This document shows positions 1,952 to 32,575 of a stretch of DNA of 53,626 bases, in pieces. The translations under genes were made by a program, and so were the position numbers. How positions within the stretch are numbered: the stretch's first letter is position 1; every line of letters starts with the position of its first letter. A model generated the notes under the pieces. That model did no database searches and was not told the origin of the DNA. It worked only from the letters and a program-made list of their open reading frames with translations. Origin of the DNA: an uncultured bacterium. Lineage in GTDB: Bacteria; Patescibacteriota; Minisyncoccia; Phycocordibacterales; GWA1-40-21. The DNA lies in NCBI GenBank assembly GCA_903822075.1, contig CAIJNK010000009.1, positions 1 to 53,626 of the forward strand. The letters run 5' to 3'.

Positions 1952-3655
1952 TTAATTCCCGGCTGGTCGGAATCCACCGGTTGTCGCCCGATTAGCCGTA
2001 CCAGCAGCTCTATTACCACCAAGTAAGCTACCGATCGAAGCAGTACTACTAGTTGTCTGAGCGGCAGAAGAAATAACGGTTTTGGTTACAATGTAATCTC
2101 CTTCTTTCAAACCACTCAGAATTTCAATTGAACTGTCATTGGAAGTACCAGTAGTCACTATTTGCTGTCTAGGTAAAACCGCCGACTCTACCCCTTGCCC
2201 ATTCAAATAACCCGCTGGCGGAATGTCAAATACTTCCACATAACTCTGACTGCCCTGAGTTTTAATGGCGCTTGACGGCACGGTTAAGACATCGGTTTTG
2301 GCTTCCGTAATTATGGACACGCTGACCGTCATGCCGGATTTAACCCGGTCATCATTCACGTCAAAACTGACCTGCACGCTATAACTCACCACTCCCTGGC
2401 TGACCGCCCCCACCAAATCCACCTCGGTCACGGTACCAGTTAAGGTCAAATCCGGCAGAGCGTCAAATGTGGCCGTAACTTTTTGCCCGGTTTTTATTTT
2501 AGCGGCATCGATTTCATTCAGTGATATTTCGGCAATCTTCTGTTTGGTGATCAGGGTAGCGACGGCGGTTCCATTACTGGCCGTATCCCCTTTTTTTATA
2601 TTCACCGCGGCAATAATTCCGTCAAAAGGAGCCGTCACGGAATAATTATCGAGATTCTTTTGGGCCTGACTGACGGACAGTTCGGAAGTGCGGAGGGTTA
2701 GTGTGTCCGGACCAGTTTGTAAATTCTTGAGGTCAGCTTGGGCGTTAGTTAGATTTATTTGTGCAGTATCGATAGAATTCGCTGTCGATGAAAGGCTGGA
2801 AACAATTCCTCCGGCTTTGGACACTAAAGACACAACCGAAGTGTAGGCAGCATCAGCCACGGTCTGACTTTTATTGATTTCGTTGTTTCTTAAATAGATA
2901 ACGGCATCTTGGGCATCTTTTGTTGCTTGAGAAATATTTAAGGAAACCGAATTAAATTCGGTAACAAAAGATTTAATAGTGGCGTTATCCGCTCCAGCCG
3001 ACAGACTTCGATATTTTATTATTAAATTACTCAGGAGGCGACTAGAATCGTCATGGCTGGTTTCAGCTTTATCTCGATAATTTTTCCCCACACCGGTTAA
3101 AGAATATCTTCCGGAGGACAAAAAACCAGTATTAAAATCGAATAGACTAGTCAAACCACTGTCGACGTCAGACAGGTCTGTCAGAGCGGTAGAAAGCGAA
3201 GTAACAGCGCTAGTATAAGAATCGGTTAAATTAGTCTGGGCTTGGGTGACGGCATTTTGATCTTTACGCAAAGTATCCGGATCAACGGTGACGAGCTTAT
3301 CGTAAGATAGTTTGGCATTTTCCAATTGATAGGCGGCATCGGTATTATCGATCTGAGCGATCAAAGTTCCAGCTTTAACTTCCTGACCCACCACGGCATT
3401 TAAATAGGTAAGCTCTCCGGACGCCTGGGTCTTTAAATCTACCTGGTCCGAAGCGGAAACCTGTCCTGTACCGCTAACTGTAGAAATGAGAGTTCCTCGT
3501 GTGACGGTTTCCACCGTATATAAAGTTCGACCGCTTGTACTCGTTAATGATTTGACGATCTGATAGCCAATTATAACAATAACAACAAGGGCGATAAAAC
3601 TTATTATCTTGTGCTTTAAAATATAAATCCAAATTTTTGTAAAAATATTTTTCAT
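1952..3655 (-). CDS. HlyD/MacA-like efflux adaptor (membrane fusion protein)
   Basis: A 567-residue membrane-anchored adaptor. One N-terminal membrane segment (about 13-32) is followed by a barrel-sandwich/lipoyl half motif (GTGQVSASDQVDLKTQASGE), a long helical region (about 110-320) and the second lipoyl half (YSVTAPFDGIIAAVNIKKGD). Beta-barrel and membrane-proximal domains with FDALPDLTLTGTVTEVD follow. It is longer than E. coli MacA (about 370 aa), mainly through an expanded helical hairpin and a Ser/Thr/Ala-rich tail. It should connect the exporter to the cell envelope; the role of the hairpin in a cell that may lack an outer membrane is unclear. Spacing is 5 nt to each neighbouring operon gene. 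Confidence 0.9.
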   Translation of the reverse strand: MKNIFTKIWIYILKHKIISFIALVVIVIIGYQIVKSLTSTSGRTLYTVETVTRGTLISTVSGTGQVSASDQVDLKTQASGELTYLNAVVGQEVKAGTLIAQIDNTDAAYQLENAKLSYDKLVTVDPDTLRKDQNAVTQAQTNLTDSYTSAVTSLSTALTDLSDVDSGLTSLFDFNTGFLSSGRYSLTGVGKNYRDKAETSHDDSSRLLSNLIIKYRSLSAGADNATIKSFVTEFNSVSLNISQATKDAQDAVIYLRNNEINKSQTVADAAYTSVVSLVSKAGGIVSSLSSTANSIDTAQINLTNAQADLKNLQTGPDTLTLRTSELSVSQAQKNLDNYSVTAPFDGIIAAVNIKKGDTASNGTAVATLITKQKIAEISLNEIDAAKIKTGQKVTATFDALPDLTLTGTVTEVDLVGAVSQGVVSYSVQVSFDVNDDRVKSGMTVSVSIITEAKTDVLTVPSSAIKTQGSQSYVEVFDIPPAGYLNGQGVESAVLPRQQIVTTGTSNDSSIEILSGLKEGDYIVTKTVISSAAQTTSSTASIGSLLGGNRAAGTANRATTGGFRPAGN

Positions 3656-3660
3656 AATAA

Positions 3661-4140
3661 TTAATTTGTTTTTATTGTTGAACTAGCGGCCATTGGAGCT
3701 GGCATGACACGAATAAATCTAGCGTCTATCTCACCTTGGTTATTTGCTTCTCCAAGTACAGAAACAAAATCACCAACATTAATACCCGAAGGTTTTATAT
3801 CGTCCCGGAATTTTCGAACTAAAGTTTGATCACTCATCAGGACTATTTTTTCAATGTTATTTTGCTCAGCCACGATCAAGGTGGAAGTACTTACCCTTAT
3901 AACCGGACCAACGGCCCCATGACCACCTGAAATATTATCAAAAGGCATTGCCGGACCTCTTTGCTCACCAAAAATGCGATTATAATTTTCACCTAAACGT
4001 CCGGAAAATTCCGCTTTTTTCAAGCCCAAAAACATGCCGGCCTGGAAGACAACTGCCAGCACTAGGACAATAACAATCCCAATTATAACACCTTTAAAAG
4101 TTTTTGATTGAATGCCTTCCTTGATATTGATCATGTTCAT
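3661..4140 (-). CDS. Membrane-anchored protein with DUF5666-like domain
   Basis: A 159-residue protein with an N-terminal membrane anchor (about 18-37) and an extracytoplasmic region. The C-terminal part (about 75-145), with VIRVSTSTLIVAEQNNIEKI, then GDFVSVLGEANNQGEIDARFIRV, resembles the small OB-like DUF5666 fold common in CPR surface proteins. It lies between the sigma-factor genes and the adaptor gene (5 nt before it), so it is probably an accessory or sensor component of the exporter. No catalytic motif is visible. ATG codons at 4140 and 4134 are both possible starts. Confidence 0.75.
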   Translation of the reverse strand: MNMINIKEGIQSKTFKGVIIGIVIVLVLAVVFQAGMFLGLKKAEFSGRLGENYNRIFGEQRGPAMPFDNISGGHGAVGPVIRVSTSTLIVAEQNNIEKIVLMSDQTLVRKFRDDIKPSGINVGDFVSVLGEANNQGEIDARFIRVMPAPMAASSTIKTN

Positions 4141-4167
4141 ATTTATGATAAAGCTAAACGTTAAATA

Positions 4168-4578
4168 TTAAATTAAACTGGCCGACATGCCAATCTTCTT
4201 ATAATCCCTCAAAGCGAACCTTAGACTAACGAGCAGGGTTAAAATCAAAACAAGAATGGAAGTGACTTGAAGAATGGGTAATGATTCTGCCAAAGACATA
4301 GAAAACTCCTTCCAATAAACAGCCACTGCGCCTGTATCAGTAAAGAGCAAAGATAAATAATTCCAGAAACCCGAGGTTTGCAATTGGTAAAAAATCTTTA
4401 TAATTAAAGGAAAAAGAGCAATAAATGAAAGGCTTCCGACTGCCCTAGAGATTACTACCTGAAGCCACCTTCTCTTTTCCTGTTCTCGATTGATCCGTAT
4501 AATAACCTTATCCGTCAAAAAGGCCAAATCTTGTTCGGCAACTATGTTTTTAAAGGCTTTTTTTAGGTTATTGCTCAT
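4168..4578 (-). CDS. Small membrane protein, candidate anti-sigma partner
   Basis: A 136-residue protein whose ATG directly abuts the TAA stop of the ECF sigma gene, suggesting translational coupling. The first 45 residues are soluble, helical and charged. Two membrane segments follow (about 45-65 and 98-120), with an extracytoplasmic loop between them. This order (short cytosolic helical region, membrane part, co-encoded with an ECF sigma factor) is that of a membrane anti-sigma factor, but no zinc-binding anti-sigma HxxxCxxC motif is present. The anti-sigma role is an inference from position alone. Confidence 0.7.
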   Translation of the reverse strand: MSNNLKKAFKNIVAEQDLAFLTDKVIIRINREQEKRRWLQVVISRAVGSLSFIALFPLIIKIFYQLQTSGFWNYLSLLFTDTGAVAVYWKEFSMSLAESLPILQVTSILVLILTLLVSLRFALRDYKKIGMSASLI

Positions 4579-5163
4579 TTACAGTTTTATACGCAATAAA
4601 AGCTTTTTTAGGTGCATAACACCTCGATAATGCTGGCTTTTGACAGTTTCGACTGGTCTATTGAGGACTTTAGCAATTTCCTCAATTGATAAATCATCAG
4701 CGTATTTTAGCAGTAAAACTTCGCGATAGAGCGGTGACAGTTTATTTAATGTTTCATTAAAAACATTTTGATCTTCAACTTTGGAGAATACTTCTTCGGC
4801 CGAAGGCTGGTCATCCGCTAGAGTGTCTTCTAAAATGTTCCCGCCATCTACACTATCAAATTCCGAAAAGGCCACATCCTTCTTCTTGCGCCAGTAATCA
4901 ATGACGGTATTCCGCGCAATGGAAAAAAGCCAGGTCTTGAAAGAATATTTTTCCTTATACCCCTTTATTTTTTTCCAGACTTTTACAAAGACCTCTTGGG
5001 TAATATCTTCTGTCGTATTTTTATCAATTATCAAGCCGTAAACGAAACGATATACGGACTTAATGTGCTTATTTATCAAGTACGGCAAAATCTCTTCCTG
5101 GCCAGCCAGATATTCCGCCACCAATTCCTTATCCTCCATTTTATCTAGGTCAAAATTATCCAT
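4579..5163 (-). CDS. ECF-type RNA polymerase sigma factor
   Basis: A 194-residue sigma-70 family protein. Region 2 is at about 25-95 (NTTEDITQEVFVKVWKKI, then SFKTWLFSIARNTVIDYWRK) and region 4 at about 130-185 (LSPLYREVLLLKYADDLSIE followed by IAKVLNRPVETVKSQHYRG). Regions 1.1 and 3 are absent, as in extracytoplasmic-function sigma factors. It is the first gene of the six-gene operon ending in the MacB-like permease, so it probably controls that operon. A -10-like TAAACT ends 9 nt before the ATG with no Shine-Dalgarno, matching the leaderless pattern of many genes here. Confidence 0.95.
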   Translation of the reverse strand: MDNFDLDKMEDKELVAEYLAGQEEILPYLINKHIKSVYRFVYGLIIDKNTTEDITQEVFVKVWKKIKGYKEKYSFKTWLFSIARNTVIDYWRKKKDVAFSEFDSVDGGNILEDTLADDQPSAEEVFSKVEDQNVFNETLNKLSPLYREVLLLKYADDLSIEEIAKVLNRPVETVKSQHYRGVMHLKKLLLRIKL

Positions 5164-5199
5164 ATAGATGGAAGTTTAACACATTCGAGTCAGATAAAT

Positions 5200-6660
5200 C
5201 TATTTTTCTAAATCTAAAGTATAATCAAAACGGATTTTACTGACAAAGTCTGGCACGTGACTAACCATGATCATGACCCCTTCATATTGATTTAGAGCTT
5301 CGGCAATGATTGGAATATGGCGGAAGTTAATATGGTTCGTCGGCTCGTCCAGAATCAAGATACCGGGCTTTTGGATAACCAGCCTGGCAAAAGCCACCAA
5401 ACCTTTTTGCCCTTCGGACAAACTACCAATCTTAGTACTCATAACGTCACCATTTATCAAAAAACCGGCGGCAACACTGCGCATCATTTCTTCGGAAATT
5501 TTAGCCGAAACTTCCGTGAGCGATTTGTGGACAGTATCTTCAAAATTCAACGTGGAAAAATCTTGGCGGTAATAACCAATAGTGACTCCCGGCGCGATCT
5601 TCGTTCCTTCCGCCTCATTCTTAGCAATCGCTTCAAGTAAAGTACTCTTACCAATACCGTTCGGCCCCTTCAATAATAAGTGCTGATTACGTCTCAATTT
5701 AATATCCGTCTTTCGGATAGACATCTTATGTGCCTTGATCATTTTGAATTTGGAAATATGAACCAGCTCGCCGATAATATCAGCCTGTGCCGGTATAGTG
5801 AAGGCTCGAATCGTTTTGTCTTCCTTACGCACATCGACTTTTTCTTCTTCCAACTCTTCGGCTTTTTCACGCATCCGTTTAGCCACCAAACGCAAACCAC
5901 CTCCCTTCATAGCAAAAGCATTAGCCTGATCTTTCTTGGCCTGGATTTCCTTCAGAAGTAAAGCATTCTTTCTATTTTCCCGATCCATCCTGGCGGTAAT
6001 CTGATCCCGCACATCGGTATAGTTGCCGGCATACTGTTCTATTTTTCTGGTATAGACGTCCAAGTAAAGCACCGCGTCCGTAAAGCTGTTCAAAAAATGC
6101 GCATCATGGGAAATAACGATTACCGTTTTATCATACTTGACCAAAAAATCAGTCAGGTGGGCAATGCCTGATTTATCCAGATTATTTGTCGGTTCATCCA
6201 AAAGCAGAATATCCGGTTTCTGAATCAAAGCCGAAGCCAGAAGTAACCGAGCCTGCTGTCCGCCGGAAAAAGAACGTACTATTCGGTCGTGAACTTTATC
6301 GTGACCTTTCAGATTTACCACTTCCAAAATATCATCGATTCGTGGATCGATATCGTAAACTTTTTCTTTGAAACATTTCTGAAAGAATTCCCTAACGGTC
6401 AGATCCAATTCATCTCGCGGTATCACCTGCCGGGACAAAGCAATGGAAACTCCATTGACAATATTTATTATGCCGTCATCAGGAATTAATTTCCCCGTAA
6501 TCAAGCCAAACAAGGTGCTTTTACCGGCACCGTTTTGCCCCATGATGGTGGTTTTGGTTCCCCGCCGCACGGAAAAATCCACCTCGGTCATCAGAGGGTA
6601 ATTCTCACCGTAACCAAAGCTCACTTTTTCAAATCTCAACACCGCTTCATCTTTTGCCAT
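5200..6660 (-). CDS. ABC-F family ATPase (translation factor/ribosome protection type)
   Basis: A 486-residue soluble protein with two ABC domains and no membrane segments. Domain 1 has Walker A GQNGAGKST and signature SFSGGQQARLLLASAL; domain 2 has GPNGIGKST and SLSEGQKGLVAFARLV. Both Walker B motifs (ILLLDEPTNNLD and ILILDEPTNHIN) are intact. The charged linker at about 225-285 corresponds to the ABC-F interdomain linker that reaches into the ribosomal tRNA site. Housekeeping EttA/Uup-like and resistance-type proteins cannot be separated by eye. A -10-like TATATT ends 10 nt before the ATG. Confidence 0.92.
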   Translation of the reverse strand: MAKDEAVLRFEKVSFGYGENYPLMTEVDFSVRRGTKTTIMGQNGAGKSTLFGLITGKLIPDDGIINIVNGVSIALSRQVIPRDELDLTVREFFQKCFKEKVYDIDPRIDDILEVVNLKGHDKVHDRIVRSFSGGQQARLLLASALIQKPDILLLDEPTNNLDKSGIAHLTDFLVKYDKTVIVISHDAHFLNSFTDAVLYLDVYTRKIEQYAGNYTDVRDQITARMDRENRKNALLLKEIQAKKDQANAFAMKGGGLRLVAKRMREKAEELEEEKVDVRKEDKTIRAFTIPAQADIIGELVHISKFKMIKAHKMSIRKTDIKLRRNQHLLLKGPNGIGKSTLLEAIAKNEAEGTKIAPGVTIGYYRQDFSTLNFEDTVHKSLTEVSAKISEEMMRSVAAGFLINGDVMSTKIGSLSEGQKGLVAFARLVIQKPGILILDEPTNHINFRHIPIIAEALNQYEGVMIMVSHVPDFVSKIRFDYTLDLEK

Positions 6661-6707
6661 TTGTCCATAGAATATAGCCCATTTTCGGGAAAATAGAAAG
6701 GGTCTTT

Positions 6708-7421
6708 TTATTTCTTATGGCCTGTAATACAAATAAAAACTGGCCGATCTCTAAATGGAAATACGGATCCGAATTCTTCTTCCCCACTTATCACCAGACC
6801 ATTTCCGGTTAATTGAGCTTCAATTTCTTCCAGTGTATGTTTATAAAAAATATTACGAGACATCGGATTTATCGGTACATTAACTTTTCCGTCAATTTTC
6901 TTTTTATCTTCTGTTGCGTCAAAATACATGGACCTCCAAAGATCATAAGTTTTTGGATTTGCGGTTATTATCAAAAATTTACCTCCTCTTTCCAAAACTC
7001 GGCTTAATTCTTTTGAGGGTGTATCTAAATCGTCGAGATGAAACCAAACATTCACGGAAAACGCCATGTCGACTGATCCAGCAGCAATCGGTAGAGCATA
7101 AGCATTACCAACCATAAAGTCTCTATTTTCTTTTGTGTATAGTTCCTTAGCTCTTTCAACTAATACGGGTGATGGTTCGACTCCTAAGTATCTAACCTCA
7201 CCGGATTGAACATGGTCAGCGCAGATACCTTGCCCGGAACCAATATCCAAGATTACTTTGGGTTTAAAGGTTTTAGTCCAGTTCTCCAATTTTGGATAAA
7301 TATCATTATCTCGAATCATTCCTTTTTCATTCTCGACTGAATTAATCCATTGTCTAGCTATCTCTTCATCTTCAAATGGATTCTCCAATTTTTCCAGATC
7401 ATCTTTGGTTTGCTCGTTCAT
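6708..7421 (-). CDS. SAM-dependent methyltransferase (class I)
   Basis: A 237-residue class I methyltransferase starting MNEQTKDDLEKLENPF. An ATG 27 codons further upstream exists, but the extra residues look non-coding and would overlap the neighbouring gene. Motif I is VILDIGSGQGIC, an acidic residue follows at VEPSPVL, and the post-motif region is GSVDMAFSVNVWFHLDDLD, as in the Methyltransf_11/UbiE group. The substrate cannot be told. It is separated from the ABC-F gene by 47 nt. Confidence 0.85.
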   Translation of the reverse strand: MNEQTKDDLEKLENPFEDEEIARQWINSVENEKGMIRDNDIYPKLENWTKTFKPKVILDIGSGQGICADHVQSGEVRYLGVEPSPVLVERAKELYTKENRDFMVGNAYALPIAAGSVDMAFSVNVWFHLDDLDTPSKELSRVLERGGKFLIITANPKTYDLWRSMYFDATEDKKKIDGKVNVPINPMSRNIFYKHTLEEIEAQLTGNGLVISGEEEFGSVFPFRDRPVFICITGHKK

Positions 7422-28929: not shown

Positions 28930-29282
28930 AAAAATACCCCGCTGTGTAGAAACAGCGGGGTGAAGAGGAGCAGGTATCGAGGTTTAGCCTTTCGGGTAAG
29001 AGCTTTTCGTAGCGCTTCTTGCCGATGCAATGGCACTGACGGATTTAACCGCCTAACTTAATGTCTGTTACCCGTAGTTTCCCGTCATAACCTTGCACAC
29101 AAAGCGCACAAAGTATTTGACAGTACTTGAGGTCCGCCGTAGGACTTATTGACCGTTCTCCCATTTGAGAACAACCGATACGTTCCATGTTCGACGCCTC
29201 ACAACCTTAGTCCCGTGAGACTAATTTAGGCTCTTCCCTTTTTTGGGAATCGATATTTCTTTCTTCCTCTAAAGACCTGCTC
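28930..29282 (-). ncRNA. Candidate structured RNA of about 350 nt
   Basis: Transcribed on the minus strand from a near-consensus promoter (see next entry) and ended by an intrinsic terminator (28936-28961). The 5' end GAGCAGGU (29275-29282) pairs perfectly with ACCUGCUC (28968-28975), closing the whole molecule as a P1-like helix. Local perfect hairpins lie inside: UUCCC/GGGAA, UUAGUC/GACUAA, GUUCUC/GAGAAC, AAGUA/UACUU. It lacks the conserved RNase P, tmRNA and SRP signatures. A 47-codon ORF (29045-29188) also fits inside, but it starts mid-molecule and overlaps the hairpins. Family unknown. Confidence 0.6.
28936..28961 (-). terminator. Intrinsic terminator of the candidate RNA
   Basis: A 10-bp GC-rich stem (ACCCCGCTGT / ACAGCGGGGT) with a 6-nt loop, followed by ATTTTTATA on the minus strand. 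Confidence 0.88.
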
Positions 29283-29287
29283 ACGAT

Positions 29288-29316
29288 AGTATACGTTTTT
29301 ACTTTTTAGATATCAA
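29288..29316 (-). promoter_or_regulatory. Promoter of the candidate structured RNA
   Basis: Minus-strand TTGATA (29311-29316), exactly 17 nt, TATACT (29288-29293). Predicted start is near 29282, at the first base of the closing helix. The -35 box lies just downstream of the dnaX stop codon. Confidence 0.75.
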
Positions 29317-29318
29317 GA

Positions 29319-30356
29319 CTAGTTATCCACACGGATAAGTTTAGTCAAAATGAGCTCCAACACCATTTCCGGCAGATAGGCTTTGGCCACAAGATCATAA
29401 GACGAGAGAAGGGCAAGTAAAGTATCAGAATTTATTTTGGAAGGTTTTTCTTCGGCCAGAGTTTTAAGAAAAGTGAAATCCGTATCCGTCATCTCCTCTT
29501 TTATTTTTTCTTCCGCCGCTTTCAGGTTTCGCAGGAGCAAGATGGCGCGCATTTTGTGGAGGACCAACTTGAAATATAAGAGCAAATCAATATTAGCCTC
29601 CGTGGCTTGGGCAATAGAAGTGAGGCCGAGTTCAAGGTTACTCTGAGCGATGGAACGGATAAAATCATTGATCATTTCCCCTTTTGGCGCGCCGGTCACA
29701 GTAACCACTTCTTCCAAAGAGATTTTTTTATCTTTGGACGAGCCCATAACTTTTTGCAAGATGCTCTGAGCATCACGAAAAGAACCATCACCAAGCAGAG
29801 CAATCAGCTCCGCCGAGGCCGGCTCCAAGGTAAAGCCTTCTTTCTTCGCAATGGCAGTTACAACATCTTTCAAGACCTTTTGCGCCGGTTTGCGGAAAGA
29901 AAAAGTCTGACAGCGGGACACCACGGTTTCCGGAATCTTTTCAAACTCGGTCGTGGCCAAAATAAAAATCACATGCTTAGGCGGTTCCTCCAAAGTTTTT
30001 AAAAGGGCATTCCAAGCGGACTTGGAGAGCATGTGCGCTTCATCCAGAATGTAAATCTTGTATTTTGATTCAAACGGAATAGTGTTCACACTCTCATTTA
30101 AGGCTCGGATATCATCCACACCGGTATTTGAGGCGGCATCTATTTCAGTAATATCATTGGCACTCGTGCCCAATTCTTTGGCAAAGATGCGGGCCACACT
30201 GGTCTTGCCGGTACCTCGACTCCCGGAAAAGATATAGGCGTGGGCAATCTTGTCCAGTTCAATGCTAGACTGCAAAACTTTGACAATATGATCCTGCCCC
30301 AGGACTTCTTTGAAAGTCTGCGGGCGGTATTTTCTGTACAATGCGGTTTCCGACAT
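29319..30356 (-). CDS. dnaX: DNA polymerase III gamma/tau-like subunit without zinc module
   Basis: A 345-residue clamp-loader AAA+ ATPase. Walker A is GSRGTGKT (45-52), Walker B ILDEAHML (103-110), sensor ATTEFEKIPETVVSRC. In most bacteria a four-Cys zinc module separates Walker A from the EIDAASN motif. Here the linker is only ELGTSANDITE and no cysteines are present. The tau-specific C-terminal domains are also missing, so it corresponds to a gamma-length product. TATACT ends 6 nt before the ATG with no Shine-Dalgarno (leaderless). Confidence 0.95.
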   Translation of the reverse strand: MSETALYRKYRPQTFKEVLGQDHIVKVLQSSIELDKIAHAYIFSGSRGTGKTSVARIFAKELGTSANDITEIDAASNTGVDDIRALNESVNTIPFESKYKIYILDEAHMLSKSAWNALLKTLEEPPKHVIFILATTEFEKIPETVVSRCQTFSFRKPAQKVLKDVVTAIAKKEGFTLEPASAELIALLGDGSFRDAQSILQKVMGSSKDKKISLEEVVTVTGAPKGEMINDFIRSIAQSNLELGLTSIAQATEANIDLLLYFKLVLHKMRAILLLRNLKAAEEKIKEEMTDTDFTFLKTLAEEKPSKINSDTLLALLSSYDLVAKAYLPEMVLELILTKLIRVDN

Positions 30357-31579: not shown

Positions 31580-32575
31580 CTAAATAAGGTTATTTTTGGA
31601 GGAGGTCAAAATTGTCACAGCATCTTTGGCGGTCTCAGTAAGCATTAATTTGTTTCGAAGTTCTTTGGCACCGGCCCAACCGTTTATGTAAGCCTTGAAA
31701 TGCTTTTTCATGACCGAGAAATTTTTATCGCTTTTTTTTAGCAGAGTTTTATCAAAAATTTTAATATGTTCTATCAGAACGCTCATTTTTTCTTTGACCG
31801 AAATTTCATTTATATCTTGTCCGGAAAAAAACCACGGATTACCAAACACTCCCCGCCCAACCATCACCCCGTCAGAACCGTATTTTTTTATTTTTTCCTT
31901 AGCGTCAGTTAAATCCTTCACATCACCATTGCCGATGACAGGAATGTTTTTACCACTCGCCCTAACAAGCTCGGCCACTCTTTTGACGTAATTCCAATTT
32001 GCCGGTACCTTGGACATCTCTTTTTTAGTCCGGGCATGAACGGTTAAAGCCGAAATATCTTCCGCCAGTAGCGCCGGAATCCAGGTATCTATCTCTTCCT
32101 TATTAAAGCCCACGCGCGTTTTAACCGAAACCGGCAGGCCATTCCCGCCACGGATAGCTGCCTGAATTATTTCTCGGGCCAGCTGAGGATTCTTAATTAA
32201 AGCGGAACCAGCCCCCTGTTTGACCACACTTTTATCCGGACAGCCCATATTGATATCAATGCCGTCAAAACCAAGTTTGGAAATAAGCCGGCAAGCCTTC
32301 TCCATATTCTTTGGATTAGCCCCAAACACCTGCGCAACAATAGGCTTCTCCGGCTTGGAAAATTTTAAAATATGAGCCAGGTTTTTTCGCCCAGTCTTAT
32401 TACATAGGCCGTCGGCCGAGACAAACTCGGTCCAAAAAACCACCTGATTTTTATTCGCTGGATTTTTCCCATATTTGGCCATCATCGCCCTGAAAGCCAC
32501 ATCCGTCACATCGGCCATCGGCGCCAGACAGTAAAAAGGCTTTTTCAATTTTTCCCAAAAATTCTTCTTTACCAT
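31580..32575 (-). CDS. dus: tRNA-dihydrouridine synthase
   Basis: A 331-residue TIM-barrel flavoprotein. It has the Dus signature with catalytic Cys (GFDGIDINMGCPDKSVVKQGAG), conserved VSVKTRVGF, HARTKKEM and VIGNGDVKD segments. It reduces uridine in the tRNA D-loop. TAGTCT ends 6 nt before the ATG with TTGTCT 17 nt upstream, so the mRNA should be leaderless; the promoter interlocks with that of the divergent small gene at 32666. The exact target U positions (DusA/B/C type) cannot be read. Confidence 0.95.
   Translation of the reverse strand: MVKKNFWEKLKKPFYCLAPMADVTDVAFRAMMAKYGKNPANKNQVVFWTEFVSADGLCNKTGRKNLAHILKFSKPEKPIVAQVFGANPKNMEKACRLISKLGFDGIDINMGCPDKSVVKQGAGSALIKNPQLAREIIQAAIRGGNGLPVSVKTRVGFNKEEIDTWIPALLAEDISALTVHARTKKEMSKVPANWNYVKRVAELVRASGKNIPVIGNGDVKDLTDAKEKIKKYGSDGVMVGRGVFGNPWFFSGQDINEISVKEKMSVLIEHIKIFDKTLLKKSDKNFSVMKKHFKAYINGWAGAKELRNKLMLTETAKDAVTILTSSKNNLI

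Follow-up and report, generated by a model that had tools for sequence, protein, structure and literature searches.

A structured RNA of ~347 nt (28936..29282, minus strand) is predicted to form a stand-alone transcription unit in the window (the whole 53,626-nt stretch of DNA that was analysed), as judged from its fold energy, its promoter and terminator, and a closing helix. The dnaX gene (29319-30356, minus strand; Pfam DNA_pol3_delta2, 5e-36) ends at 29319, just upstream of the RNA. A sigma-70-type promoter, TTGATA-17-TATACT, with 10 of 12 consensus matches was identified at 29288..29316 (minus strand), and a terminator search located an intrinsic terminator with a 10-bp stem and a 6-nt loop, ATTTTTATAC, at 28936..28961 (minus strand). 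The 315-nt unit between them on this strand is closed by helix P1, in which GAGCAGGU (29275..29282) and ACCUGCUC (28968..28975) form a perfect 8-bp duplex; in the MFE fold, an inner part of P1, GAGG (29266..29269, minus strand), pairs with CCUC at 28979-28982. The initial annotation had described a promoter, a closing helix, a terminator and strong folding downstream of dnaX, with no strand given. All of these features are present, all on the minus strand, and dnaX does end immediately upstream of the RNA promoter; the interval assigned there, 28930-29282, contains the RNA but not the promoter (29316-29288). On the minus strand, the RNA terminator is followed 42 nt later by the start of the next gene (28894-28184). 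Its product gave no Pfam match and was not recognisable as a ribosomal protein; its start appeared helix-turn-helix-like by eye. A dus gene lies at 31580-32575 (minus strand), 2.3 kb upstream of the window RNA.

The minus-strand fold energy was -127.3 kcal/mol, compared with -97.3 +/- 6.2 kcal/mol for shuffled sequences (z -4.9), and 0 of 100 shuffles folded as well. The plus strand was also stable (z -5.3), since the complements of structured RNAs fold well too. A plus-strand RNA was rejected, because that strand carries neither promoter nor terminator.

The host genome (819 kb in 22 contigs, CPR-sized) contains a second locus, the paralogue L002 at C4:7783-7931 (minus strand), which also carries GAAGAAAGAAAUAUCGAUUCCC and has its own closing helix, GGAAAGCUCG/CGAGCUUUCC, and its own terminator. 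A sensitive search of the same genome revealed no third copy, the two weak extra matches being devoid of the other features, and blastn searches for homologues within the same family gave chance matches only, the paralogue on C4 excepted. The host's own 23S rRNA gene is absent from the assembly. Another 22 members came to light in searches with patterns and covariance models, giving a family of 24 that comprises 23 free-standing RNA genes and one copy embedded in a 23S rRNA gene. Besides the window RNA and L002, the members (locus/genome) are L030/G028, L039/G116 (Ca. Campbellbacteria CP011215), L141/G374, L151/G959, L154/G722, L190/G971, L203/G751, L231/G027, L232/G242, L234/G1035, L236/G032, L239/G131, L242/G135, L243/G175, L248/G1021, L252/G237, L271/G103, L281/G033, L302/G250, L362/G470, L363/G618 and the embedded copy L070 (Saccharibacteria). 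Members were separated from 23S rRNA by the absence of the H14 loop GUAGYGGCGAGCGAA, and the candidates were then inspected one by one for P1, the 3' GNCUAAA strand and a terminator. The pattern matches L013, L014 and L017 were judged to be non-members. At least one member was present in 15 of 377 genomes of the order, a lower bound because the model covers only the 5' third of the RNA, some weak matches were left uninspected, and the model detected 23S rRNA itself in only a minority of the genomes. The relatives are spread over many families of the order, class and phylum, among ultra-small bacteria of the CPR/Patescibacteria type; in the searched relatives of the same family and genus, no member was detected.

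In Rfam, the RNA region of the window matched nothing at the gathering threshold and gave only sub-threshold chance matches at E <= 10. The RNase P, tmRNA, SRP and 6S models had no match in this region, nor was a tRNA or tmRNA found there. Eighteen other members likewise had no Rfam match, and RF02541 (LSU_rRNA_bacteria) matched neither this region nor these 18. The best tblastn match of the 47-codon frame (29188-29045, minus strand) in the 23 other members covered 10 aa (E 0.28), and the coding reading was rejected because the frame is not conserved among the members. These results agree with the initial annotation, which had seen no convincing gene and no RNase P, tmRNA or SRP signature and had proposed the Rfam search. 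The RNAs form a structured class absent from Rfam, for which a covariance model is now available for annotation.

The conserved parts of the RNA correspond to the H13-H14-H16-H21 core of 23S rRNA domain I, in unchanged order. Comparison of the members with 23S rRNA identified the most conserved block, GAAGAAAGAAAUAUCGAUUCCC (29245..29266, minus strand), as the counterpart of H13 and the H14 5' strand. An H14-like helix, UUCCC/GGGAA (29234..29249, minus strand), emerged from comparison, covariation and the MFE fold, with a 6-nt loop replacing the 23S loop. In the H16-like long-range helix, the 5' strand AGCC (29229..29232, minus strand) was assigned by covariation, and the 3' strand GGCU (28986..28989, minus strand), which lies inside AAGGCUAAAC (compare AAGGCUAAAUAC in 23S rRNA), by covariation and 23S comparison. 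A hairpin past H16 (29207..29224, minus strand), identified from the alignment and model R1 and present in all 20 aligned members, is followed by GGUUGUGAGGC (GGGGUUGUAGGAC in 23S rRNA). Further on, CUCAAGUA (29119..29131, minus strand) is the counterpart of 23S CCUGAGUA, where H21 starts; 18 of the 24 members have this H21 element, CC[UAC]RAGUA, in their inner region, compared with 0.82 expected and a maximum of 4 in 500 simulations. P1, H14, H16 and the next hairpin all appear in the MFE fold computed for the window RNA without constraints, and forcing H13 into this fold costs 0.6 kcal/mol. With 23S domain I (H13-H22, roughly E. coli nt 215-425; RF02541), the RNA has in common GAAAGAAAUAUCGAUUCCC, GGGAAGAGCCUAAACC, GGGGUUGUAGGAC, CCUGAGUA, AAGGCUAAA and the helix order. 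It differs in being encoded separately, with a promoter, a terminator and a P1 of its own, in H16 bases that are free to covary, in an AGGAA(GA)AAAG stretch shorter by 2 nt, in giving no significant RF02541 match, and in lacking the H14 loop, a difference that is partly true by definition because the loop was the sorting criterion.

Model R1, trained solely on five free-standing members and the copy inside the L070 23S gene, matched genuine 23S domain I in L021 (58.7 bits, 8e-13), with further 23S domain I matches in L019, L078 and L028. Across hundreds of genomes, R1 and R2 found little besides 23S rRNA and additional members. A scan of 84,980 species genomes with AGAAAGAAATNTCGATTCC also returned mostly 23S rRNA, and these matches continue with GGGAAGAGCCUAAACC and GGGGUUGUAGGAC, as the window RNA does; since the scan selected for the motif, the independent evidence lies in the neighbouring blocks and not in the motif itself. 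An nhmmer profile of the motif-selected 23S sequences gave E-values of 8.5e-8 for the window RNA, 6e-5 for its paralogue and 2e-6 for the Campbellbacteria copy, and a CPR-only 23S profile unselected for the motif found the window RNA at only E = 0.07. The direction from R1 to 23S rRNA is the better test than that from a 23S profile to the RNA. The 23S H13 of relatives in the window's own family is quite different from that of the window RNA, which is therefore not a fresh copy of the 23S rRNA of its own family. Taken together, these RNAs very probably represent a new class of RNA genes homologous to 23S rRNA domain I.

In the 20-member core alignment (A4), 98.4% of helix cells were paired and 13 of 16 pairs showed two-sided changes, with a covariation score of 0.694, compared with 0.178 for shuffled and at most 0.124 for slid controls. 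This alignment was hand-trimmed and helix-anchored by hand, and replaced an automatic MAFFT alignment of the untrimmed sequences, in which H14 was misaligned. Compensatory changes were found in all four helices tested (the H13-, H14- and H16-like helices and the following hairpin), of which H13, H14 and the hairpin were favoured because the trimming followed the helices; H16 was anchored by AG..NAAA and CUAAA and not by its own pairs. Its variants include AGCC:GGCU, AGUC:GACU, AGGG:CCCU, AGGC:GCCU, AGGA:UCCU and AGCAA:UUGCU, with a mismatch in one member (L231). At the level of sequence comparison, selection is shown to maintain the core fold of 23S domain I in this RNA. A duplicated piece of a 23S rRNA gene in the course of decay would account for the resemblance to 23S rRNA but is hardly credible, as the strong compensatory evolution contradicts decay, the promoter, terminator and P1 occur at independent loci, and H13 is unlike that of the family's own 23S rRNA. 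The initial annotation had inferred a lineage-specific structured RNA and suggested a covariation check, which proved strongly positive in the 20 members. The conserved structured noncoding RNA is upheld by the 23 other members, the covariation, and the RNAs' own promoters and terminators, but lineage specificity is contradicted by the scatter of members across the phylum; the homology to 23S domain I and the second genomic copy had both been missed.

Several members deviate in structure. L363 and L190 are reduced, with roughly 120-130 nt from the motif to CUAAA, and may define a minimal core; L190 is without the hairpin and the GGUUGUAGGAC block. In L248 (1501-1630, plus strand), the motif recurs as a small nested repeat within the H14 loop, GGAUGAGUCUAAACCUC...GAGGGACUAAGG, an arrangement resembling an insertion of the module into itself. 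A possible pseudoknot was observed in L141 (1501-1800, minus strand), with UGUCGGGGC preceding and GCCCCGAUA following the 3' strand of H16.

Three genomes (G242, G175 and G103) contain this RNA together with an ordinary copy of 23S domain I with a normal H14 loop. Because both are present in at least three genomes, the RNA is not a split piece of rRNA, and the split-rRNA reading was disfavoured. The same observation weighs against a piece supplied in trans, which would take the place of the corresponding 23S domain I segment in the 50S subunit and make alternative ribosomes. In favour of such a role, the core fold is kept and one Saccharibacterium 23S gene holds an extra copy, but P1 makes the RNA a closed unit and the H14 loop consensus is lost, so that we consider this role improbable.

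The copy in that 23S gene (L070) lies at 3304-3581 (minus strand), within an RF02541 match at 1960-6902, and is flanked by what we take to be the H63 region of 23S rRNA. Its domain-I-like module has its own closing helix, CUAGGUGAU/AUCAUCUAG, and the surrounding insertion is bounded by long complementary arms. A mobile or intron-derived element bearing an rRNA-like module could explain this copy and the patchy distribution, and rRNA genes of CPR bacteria are rich in insertions (PMC11270868). However, no encoded protein was seen, and two patterns searched in viral contigs found no members (one rRNA-like match was ordinary 23S rRNA, and the others looked like chance), nor did blastn of phage records. 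Moreover, the gene order transketolase-RNA-PfkB (genes named by eye) is common to G1035 and G1021, which belong to different families, and alaS lies upstream of the RNA in G374 and G959, which belong to one family. Such common synteny suggests vertical inheritance with much loss and makes a mobile origin distinctly unlikely. The RNA also lies immediately 5' of dus in G374, and one gene intervenes between the two in G959, possibly by coincidence.

We also evaluated the gene character of the RNA across the family. Under a strict rule, a promoter was found within 75 nt upstream in 9 of 22 members, compared with 5% of random stretches, and many of the members failing this rule show TTGAC-type sequences by eye. 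Terminator-like sites were found downstream of 17 of 22 members, compared with 15% of random stretches. Neighbouring genes vary among members and are often convergent, with no constant neighbour, which makes a role in trans likelier than that of a leader. A cis-regulatory leader of the downstream gene, of the ribosomal-protein type with rRNA mimicry, would fit the short distance of 42 nt to the next same-strand gene of the window (28894-28184), and rRNA-mimicking leaders are known (PMC7247131). A ribosomal-protein gene is not regularly found downstream, however; the downstream genes differ in most contexts, the terminator comes after the whole structure, and the downstream gene of the window, without a Pfam match, is no recognisable ribosomal protein. 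The chance that the RNA is a leader is accordingly slim. Two members adjoin rRNA genes: in G618 the RNA directly follows 23S-5S (L402 1-960), and in G470 it follows 16S-tRNA (L401), with no 23S along the 3 kb of contig that follow.

The best overall explanation, to which we assign a probability of about 0.4, is that a free-standing homologue of 23S domain I acts in trans as an rRNA mimic and is recognised by either a ribosomal protein or an assembly factor. The minus-strand RNA would be an independently transcribed homologue of H13-H14-H16-H21(-H22) that became detached from rRNA, gained its own closing helix P1 and lost the H14 loop consensus. Its folded rRNA core may have been kept because a protein specific for this segment of 23S rRNA binds it, putatively a ribosomal protein or an assembly factor; among domain-I binders, uL24, uL4 and bL28 would be candidates. 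The RNA could then serve as a sponge or carrier that sets the amount of this protein reaching nascent 50S subunits; alternatively, in cells where rRNA copies are few, it might keep the bound protein in solution. That these phylum-wide rRNA-domain RNAs tune ribosome assembly in trans, as decoys or chaperones of a protein that binds 23S domain I, is a tentative proposal, held somewhat less firmly than the overall explanation. Slightly less likely again is descent from 23S domain I with a function unrelated to ribosome supply, as part of some ribonucleoprotein or enzyme (a scaffold, or a dormancy or stress RNA like 6S, OLE or raiA). The private promoter and terminator, the trans-acting layout, the variable insertions between conserved core elements and the paralogues in one genome are consistent with such a function, but the retained residues are those conserved in 23S rRNA, and the two members adjoining rRNA genes point to ribosome biology. 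For the preferred reading, binding in trans by a ribosomal protein or assembly factor, the patchy occurrence (15 of 377) and the failure to find a member in those relatives of the same family that were searched speak against the RNA being essential. Ribosome biogenesis and assembly factors are about half as numerous in CPR bacteria as is usual (PMC12641178), which makes RNA-based control of assembly plausible, short of demonstration. Such control of ribosome assembly may matter in bacteria that lack many assembly factors, and a gene family derived from a whole rRNA subdomain allows rRNA domains to be tested, in a natural setting, for function outside the ribosome.

Large structured noncoding RNAs of bacteria include 6S, OLE, ROOL, GOLLD and raiA, with which the present RNA shares its size class and the form of a stand-alone structured RNA gene. 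To our knowledge, none of these is an rRNA homologue, and we know of bacterial rRNA mimicry only in short cis-acting leaders. The window RNA and 18 other members are set apart from these classes by having no Rfam match, and a literature search, in which subscription journals and preprints were thinly covered, found no free-standing counterpart. The 23S insertions described for CPR bacteria (PMC11270868) belong to the bacterial group that also carries the present RNA, and L070 is itself inside a 23S gene; unlike these insertions, the other members lie outside rRNA genes and have their own closing helix and mostly recognisable terminators, with no encoded protein seen. Ribosomal-protein leaders with rRNA mimicry (the L20, S15 and S4 leaders and others), which act in cis and locally, are likewise extra-ribosomal RNAs resembling a piece of rRNA (PMC7247131). 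By contrast, whereas those leaders belong to the 5' UTR of the mRNA that they regulate and imitate a small binding site, the present RNA is an independent gene with no constant neighbour that reproduces a whole subdomain.
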